Source: Thermoleophilia bacterium (lineage in GTDB: Bacteria; Actinomycetota; Thermoleophilia; Solirubrobacterales; 70-9). From it: a DNA stretch of 42,593 bases. This document shows positions 16,179 to 42,593 of the stretch, in pieces (position 1 is the first letter of the stretch; every line of letters starts with the position of its first letter). The position numbers and the translations under genes were made by a program. The notes below the pieces were generated by a model. The model saw only the letters and a list, made by a program, of their open reading frames with translations. It was not told the DNA's origin and searched no databases. The stretch covers positions 1-42,593 of the forward strand of contig JAENWU010000009.1 in NCBI GenBank assembly GCA_016649905.1. Reading direction: 5' to 3'.

Positions 16179-16210
16179 TCTGCTTTTCTCGAATCACGCA
16201 CGGCCGTGAA

Positions 16211-16310
16211 AACCAAGCAGGTCGGTGGACGCAGGGCGCGAGGTGAGGGGAGCGCACTGTTCAGTGCGTGACCCGATCCGAGCGACCGAGGACTCCGAGA
16301 TGCGCAGGTT
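16211..16310 (+). ncRNA. Candidate structured element, family C copy 3 (divergent)
   Basis: GTGGACGCAGGGCGC ... hairpin CGCACTG-TT-CAGTGCG ... GAGCGACCGAGGACTC, with weaker outer pairing AACC/GGTT and TCGG/CCGA. Confidence 0.45.
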
Positions 16311-16324
16311 TGCAGCGGCCGCGC

Positions 16325-23586: not shown

Positions 23587-23689
23587 CCAGAGTGTGGATG
23601 GCCAAGTAGATCAAGGACGCAGGGAGCGTGGCGTGCTCTGCACGCGAGCGACTGAGGACGCGGATATACGCCGGTCATCCGCGCTCTGG
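23587..23689 (+). ncRNA. Candidate structured element, family C copy 1
   Basis: Outer 14-bp helix CCAGAGTGTGGATG / CATCCGCGCTCTGG (two G.U wobbles), conserved AGGACGCAGGGAGC ... GAGCGACTGAGGACGC, inner hairpin GCGTGC-TCT-GCACGC. Confidence 0.6.
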
Positions 23690-41691: not shown

Positions 41692-42459
41692 GTGAGAGCC
41701 CGAATCTCCGTCTTGGCCACGGCCCTCCTCGTTGCCGCCGCGCTACCTGCAGCGAGCCAGGCGGCGCCGGTCGAGAACCCCTGCGAAGGCAAGGAAGCCA
41801 AGCAGCTCCTCTGCCCCAACCTGCGGATCGGCCCCGCCAGCGAACTCTACGTCGAGGACAACGGCCCAGGCCGAGTCCTGCTGCGAGCCACCAGCGACGT
41901 GCGCAGCCGCGGCCGCGGCCCGATGGAGCTGGTCGGCAAGCGCAACGGCTGGCGGACGATGCGGACCAACCAGCGCATCTACAGGGTCGGCGGCGGCCAG
42001 ATCACGGTCAGCAGCGACGCCACGCTGCGCTTCACCGACGTCGGCGCGTACTGGGGCGGCGCCTACTGGAAGGTCCACCAACTCGCCCAGTTCAACCTGC
42101 GCGCGGTCGAACCCGACGGCAGCCTGGGAGCGGTCGTCCGCACCAGTCCCAAGCTCAACTACTGCCTGCGCGACCTCGAGCGCACCCAGCCGAGTGCGGT
42201 CTCACCAGCGAGCCGCCACTACCCCGGCTGCAACCAGAACCCCTACCGCAGCCGGGTCACGCTGGGGACCTCGGTCGGCTGGTCGGACATCTACCCCGCC
42301 CCCTACCAGCAGCAATGGATCAACGTCGCCGGCCTCAGCGGCTGCTTCTCCTTCGAGATGACCGTCGACCCGAAGGAAAACCTCTTCGAGTCGAACGAGC
42401 GGGACAACACCTCGCAGCGGCTGGTCAGCCTGCCGTTCACCGGCATCACCACCTGCTAG
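41692..42459 (+). CDS. Secreted lysyl-oxidase-like protein lacking the canonical copper-binding histidines
   Basis: GTG start with signal peptide ([20 protein letters not shown]); [14 protein letters not shown]-type N-terminus and C-terminal [14 protein letters not shown] ... YPGCNQN ... [60 protein letters not shown] typical of bacterial lysyl oxidase family proteins. Confidence 0.75.
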
Positions 42460-42467
42460 TGGTGTGA

Positions 42468-42483
42468 CCGGCAACGTTGCCGG
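42468..42483. repeat. 16-bp perfect palindrome downstream of the lysyl-oxidase-like gene
   Basis: CCGGCAACGTTGCCGG. Confidence 0.8.
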
Positions 42484-42486
42484 GAA

Positions 42487-42591
42487 TCTGGCGAGACTCG
42501 GTGGTCGTCGGGCCAGGACGCAGGGAGCCCGAATAGCAGCGCTATTTGGGCGACTGAGGACGCCGCACGGCGATCATCCGAGGCCGCCAGA
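42487..42591 (+). ncRNA. Candidate structured element, family C copy 2
   Basis: Outer helix TCTGGCG..CTCGGTGGTCG / CGATCATCCGAG..CGCCAGA, conserved AGGACGCAGGGAGC ... GGGCGACTGAGGACGC, inner hairpin CCCGAATAGC-AGC-GCTATTTGGG. Confidence 0.6.
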
Positions 42592-42593
42592 AA

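Follow-up and report, generated by a model that had tools for sequence, protein, structure and literature searches.

Palindromic Repeats in Bacterial Genomes

Among known palindromic repeats of bacteria are the REPs and BIMEs of the GTAG and CGTC superfamilies, which measure 20–40 bp and consist of one stem-loop with a terminal tag, and some described REPs lie inside other palindromes (Di Nocera et al., 2013; PMC3733652). The same paper, which makes no mention of Actinobacteria, also covers rickettsial RPE elements, palindromic repeats that are readable into proteins. NEMIS, RUP and ERIC (named in part from PMC3733652) represent the class of IS630-type MITEs.

The element described here was found in a stretch of 42,593 nucleotides of a Thermoleophilia bacterium (contig JAENWU010000009.1, hereafter the window). 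It resembles REPs and BIMEs in being palindromic, present in high copy number and placed 3′ of genes, often over stop codons and between codirectional or convergent ORFs, whereas it differs from them in its length of about 100–190 bp, its invariant core with several internal loops, its locus-specific stems and the lack of a RAYT gene. REPs carry a GTAG or CGTC tag at the hairpin foot, and here GACG/CGTC is present within the core, not at the end. With IS630-type MITEs it shares a short, palindromic and intergenic nature, and a CTAG-ended subset has a terminal repeat in common with an IS630-family element of the same genus; however, most copies lack CTAG ends, the core is conserved across distant lineages, and a folding constraint lies on one named strand. 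As with rickettsial RPE, one copy is read into a protein, supplying the stop of UDP-glucose dehydrogenase (UGD) and the 25 codons before it, but the copies here are almost all intergenic, with 6 of 216 inside genes. Integron attC sites likewise fold into hairpins on one strand and leave the stem sequence free, but here the conserved part is a central two-strand core, and the sites examined showed neither a cassette array nor an integrase context. Taken together, we consider with a probability of roughly two in three that Thermoleophilia and some other Actinomycetota carry here a family of REP/MITE-like hairpin repeats that are mobile but non-autonomous, and its best label is a new, unusually complex REP/MITE-like repeat with a putative function.

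Copies in the Window

One copy is one long imperfect palindrome, in which outer stems enclose a conserved purine-rich two-strand core capped by an apical hairpin. The sequence-only reading of the window had recognized three loci with a common two-strand motif, and all three were recovered: AGGACGCAGGGAGC matches exactly at 23614–23627 and 42515–42528, GRGCGACTGAGGACGC matches exactly at 23646–23661 and 42548–42563, and the third copy, near 16.2 kb, carries two mismatches per conserved strand. Both a 112-position covariance model built from ten class 1 copies (R1) and a core model of 78 positions derived from 44 diverse copies (R2) match at 23600–23676 and 42501–42578, with R2 scores of 74.6 and 74.7 bits, respectively, and the third copy is picked up more weakly by R2, at 16211–16310 (36.8 bits).

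Copy 1 (class 2) occupies 23587–23689 on the plus strand as an entire hairpin (RNAfold −67.9 kcal/mol including flanks; R1 45.2 bits) and has an orthologue at the same position in genome G003. Its outer helix, whose extent is the one originally proposed, joins the locus-specific 5′ arm CCAGAGTGTGGATG (23587–23600) to the 3′ arm CATCCGCGCTCTGG (23676–23689) and contains two non-Watson-Crick pairs, both T.G on the plus strand. The apical hairpin GCGTGC-TCT-GCACGC (23631–23645), likewise as first drawn, is helix 3 of the core model, in which 10 of 11 pairs show double changes, and the core strands AAGGACGCAGGGAGC (23613–23627) and GCGACTGAGGACGC (23648–23661) are nearly invariant in the 44 diverse copies. 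Copy 1 lies between genes assigned by Pfam to UGD and NTP transferase; read on the minus strand, 23611–23689 gives the final ~25 codons and stop of the former frame, and the start of the neighbour gene follows about 8 bases past the hairpin, so that the element fills the inter-gene gap.

Copy 2 (class 1; 42456–42593, plus strand; R1 118.4 bits for 42484–42593) is a CTAG-ended element whose 3′ end is cut by the contig end, with CTAGTGGTGTGACC at 42456–42469 and the core strands AGGACGCAGGGAGC (42515–42528) and GGGCGACTGAGGACGC (42548–42563). A copy had been placed at 42487–42591, and one is indeed present there, but the intact version on contig C210 (167 bp, CTAG...CTAG) puts the start of the full hairpin earlier, at 42456. 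Copy 2 is a member of a recent burst of class 1 copies in the host, which share identical 48-bp cores. Copy 3 (16198–16324, plus strand; arms GCACGGCCG/CGGCCGCGC), a class 2 copy whose apical hairpin is longer, lies 3′ of secA and antisense to it (SecA by Pfam).

Fold and Strand Asymmetry

The fold is strongly supported by covariation, which bears out the earlier view of a conserved internal loop within sequence-variable helices. In a 44-row core alignment that was not fitted to the structure, the named structure is paired in 89.8% of cells vs. 70.3% when shuffled, 15 of 21 core pairs show double changes, and the covariation score is 0.508 vs. 0.152, a value reached by 0 of 500 shuffles, the structure itself having been chosen from folds of the same sequences, which partly favours the slid controls. 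Read by eye, the core loops are G-GA-C/G-GA-C (tandem G.A pairs), CAG/CYG, GGA/GA and AA/GCC, and an A-Y pair (columns 22–59) is standard in just 18 of 44 rows. Triloops make up 69 of 124 apical loops, C-G closes 97 of the 124, and the 33 tetraloops include one GNRA and no UNCG. Triloops are a preference of DNA hairpins, and the C-G-closed triloops together with the single GNRA loop lean slightly to DNA rather than RNA.

The sequence of the outer stem is free provided that plus-strand pairing holds. Across 238 non-redundant copies, G.T exceeds A.C on the plus strand of the outer stems by 255 to 42, with an excess of G.T in 125 copies and of A.C in 12; the counts cover single mismatches lying over 20 nt away from the core, in arms aligned by a strand-symmetric, Watson-Crick-only score, and as the copies are related, p-values overstate their independence. 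The preference for G.U over A.C that had been noted in the window is thus a property of the family. Since G.T is in excess in all gene contexts (G.T:A.C of 123:17 in antisense, 50:6 in sense, 39:15 in convergent and 16:0 in divergent copies), the constrained strand is set by the element and not by its neighbours. In FR_37, a complete Thermoleophilia genome, no replication-strand bias was found (orientation 69/139, with the origin inferred from sampled GC skew), and replication-strand targeting was rejected for this lack of orientation bias. The folding constraint acts on one named strand, in the form of RNA or single-stranded DNA, rather than on the mRNA that flanks it, and such a strand-specific constraint suggests a job for the element. 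Of the original plus-strand RNA interpretation, strand-specific folding is retained but RNA specifically is not, as single-stranded DNA also fits.

The copies could be true small RNAs, a reading that we hold possible but doubtful, in which the plus strand would be transcribed at each locus into a stable rod binding a common protein, and an RNA gene would spread on MITE-like palindromes. The G.U preference on one strand in antisense and sense copies alike agrees with it, as do the invariant GA-rich core and compensatory drift at orthologous loci. It sits less well with the tetraloops, which are almost never GNRA or UNCG, with a number of at least 150 copies per genome, which would be unusual for one sRNA, and with the vicinity of copy 1, where no sigma-70-like promoter was found (a weak criterion for this clade).

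Copy Number and Distribution

A single strand of 14–16 bases at three or fewer mismatches is no rarer than the chance expectation, but the paired motif is not due to chance, since the pattern of both strands plus spacer matches the host assembly (2.9 Mb) 16 times and the reversed control not once. In 14 of the 16 an identical 48-bp core lies near contig ends; most of these represent the same copies split in halves, since the assembly breaks at the repeat, as it also does at the end of the window. Model searches enlarged the family from the three copies of the sequence-only reading to 54 R1 matches in the host MAG (E ≤ 0.01, some being contig-end halves of one copy), with 31 of 50 genomes positive across the taxonomic family and counts of up to 61 matches per genome. 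R2 is found in 30 of 397 genomes of the phylum, of which 17 belong to the class and 13 to other families of Actinomycetota, and reaches at least 150 matches in FR_37. Scanning 84,980 genomes for the pattern returned at least 116 stretches, and the named ones among the matches listed all belong to Actinomycetota/Thermoleophilia. With tens to at least 150 copies per genome, this is a dispersed repeat and no singular RNA gene.

Phage and plasmid records gave no match to the element. The sole viral-contig match of the core pattern, IMGVR_UViG_3300026300_000009 (L269), could represent a prophage or host DNA that was binned wrongly. Rfam returned no match at the gathering threshold and nothing relevant at E < 5, in agreement with the earlier remark that no named motif fits, and no description of the element was found in the papers searched.

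Placement Relative to Genes

According to gene calls from a simple codon-usage gene finder, with no curated annotation, 57 copies lie at convergent, 10 at divergent and 143 at codirectional junctions (95 antisense, 48 sense), against 11.6, 16.7 and 53.2 kb of intergenic bases, respectively. Convergent junctions are therefore enriched and divergent ones depleted, antisense copies are about twice as frequent as sense copies between genes of the same direction, and gene 3′ ends are favoured in either orientation, with stop codons often inside the stem. The proposal of simply a new structured RNA gives way here to a multicopy, mobile-element-like repeat, mostly antisense between codirectional genes and with recent copies that are IS630-ended in the genus. 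In FR_37, a heliorhodopsin gene sits between two inverted copies (L404:570–1689).

The preference for gene 3′ ends and convergent junctions, the stop codons within stems and the depletion at divergent promoters would be expected of bidirectional 3′-end transcription terminators or mRNA stabilisers with an incidental conserved core. We regard this as unlikely, given the fact that a U-tract is lacking (TTTT follows the hairpin in 0 of 100 copies on the plus and 2 on the minus strand), that no terminator-like site was found at copy 1, that the antisense strand is the constrained one in most same-direction pairs, and that the core is nearly invariant. An intrinsic terminator in particular was rejected for want of a T-run.

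Mobilisation

The Y1 (RAYT/TnpA-REP) transposase PF01797 is absent in 14 high-copy genomes, complete FR_37 included, while control genomes were positive, and mobilisation by RAYT/IS200 was rejected on this basis. Genes of the IS630 family are present in G000, G001, G009 and FR_37. A broken IS630 element of G001 starts with CTAGTGGTGTGACCACCAACGTTTGCCGGTTTC and the class 1 end is CTAGTGGTGTGACCACCAACGTTTACCGGTTTC, 32 of 33 positions being identical by eye; contig C8 of the host carries a solo end of the IS630-type terminal repeat, and CTAG...CTAG, the pattern that a TA target duplication would leave, occurs at class 1 copies and at minus-orientation copies next to UGD. Given this common terminal repeat, the CTAG-ended copies of the genus, the one at 42456–42593 included, look like MITEs. 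IS630 is nevertheless not the general mobiliser, since its genes were not detected in four high-copy genomes (G027, G019, G010 and G004) and CTAG ends are few (2 left and 8 right among 100 copies with a determined end). The idea that an autonomous copy lies between elements in FR_37 was considered and rejected: ten proteins, from six FR_37 neighbours and four window genes, were scanned and no transposase was found, all being ordinary (among them SRP54, signal peptidase, RNase HII, heliorhodopsin, SecA, UGD).

The mobile behaviour, the dominance of C-G-closed triloops and a strand asymmetry independent of genes and replication direction allow a second reading, to which we assign only tentative credence, namely that an enzyme of transposition or processing acts on the plus-strand hairpin as single-stranded DNA, in the manner of IS200/IS605, REPs or attC, and that only foldable lineages propagate. 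The missing Y1 transposase and the lack of a lagging-strand bias weigh against it, and orthologous copies that do not move still follow plus-strand pairing, which needs selection at the level of the host.

History at Orthologous Sites

At the UGD junction, the same plus-oriented copy is found in G000 and G003, a different, opposite and CTAG-ended copy in G001, G006, G008 and G009, and none in five other members of the genus; opposite orientations thus occupy one junction in different species. Six further host sites likewise mix filled, empty and differently filled junctions, and at seven sites, in the host or at the matching positions of its relatives, copies were seen to be present, absent or apparently inserted independently. 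By hand count, the copy 1 stems of G000 and G003 differ in ten pairs, nine of which are still paired, three by double changes and six via G.T; one pair is broken and none is A.C. Maintenance of this kind at individual loci points somewhat towards a host function.

At a tRNA-Ser site, five relatives carry near-perfect stems of widely differing sequence. Stems 3′ of tRNA-Ser at L366, L368 and L378 include the tRNA 3′ end, and the opposite arm resembles inverted native sequence. An arm that holds the tRNA 3′ end and recurs as a copy in the opposite arm, as seen in several species, together with the IS630 ends, is what neutral debris of IS630-type MITEs would leave if template switching or gene conversion between arms kept the palindromes perfect. 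Template switching could keep the paired arms alike in part, although it does not predict the asymmetry of G.T over A.C. As the invariant core in distant families and the CTAG-less copies are also left unexplained, we think it quite improbable that the family is mere debris.

Four FR_37 copies of 82–86 bp (L287, L301, L318, L319) have both outer arms without the core and differ in their junctions; they are apparent internal deletion derivatives. Insertion into pre-existing terminator hairpins was attractive at site A, where G004 has a bare stem, and at site B, but was not seen at the UGD site and was rejected; with deletion derivatives of differing junctions in FR_37, insertion and internal deletion are indistinguishable, and site A of G004, empty but with a matching stem, may be a deletion derivative. 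Other hairpins also occur at these gene ends. The G010 counterpart of site A (L334) has a long, perfectly paired hairpin formed by GGCGACGGGGAGGGGTTCGGCGGGC with its complement, and lacks the conserved core. At site F, the orthologues L367 (G006), L369 (G011) and L370 (G003) share a second, unrelated hairpin core, CTGAGCGAACCTCCCGC...CGTGAGNGAAGGG, capping locus-specific stems of 20+ bp at a gene 3′ end.

A Plausible Role and Its Meaning

Returning to a mobile REP/MITE-like repeat, the core may be the docking structure for a putative trans-acting factor that acts on the single-stranded plus strand, either a transcript or single-stranded DNA. After insertion, many copies would keep a host-level role at gene ends, perhaps as a strand-specific barrier or stabiliser, a role suggested by orthologous copies that keep plus-strand pairing via compensatory changes. 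A stronger form, which we offer tentatively and do not favour, is that at tens to more than 150 loci per genome the same folded plus-strand core (RNA or single-stranded DNA) is displayed at gene ends on stems specific to each locus, and that a single dedicated trans-acting factor reads it, while selection by the host preserves the fold at every locus regardless of the direction of genes and replication.

Uncultured soil Thermoleophilia contain the family in abundance, and in them it interrupts assemblies, the end of this window being one such case. The plus-strand bias makes the question of RNA or DNA palindrome directly testable. Bacterial interspersed repeats have mostly been read as passengers, and here strand-specific pairing was kept after insertion by compensatory changes between species about 20% apart in gene divergence, which makes the family an unusually clean natural experiment on host recruitment.
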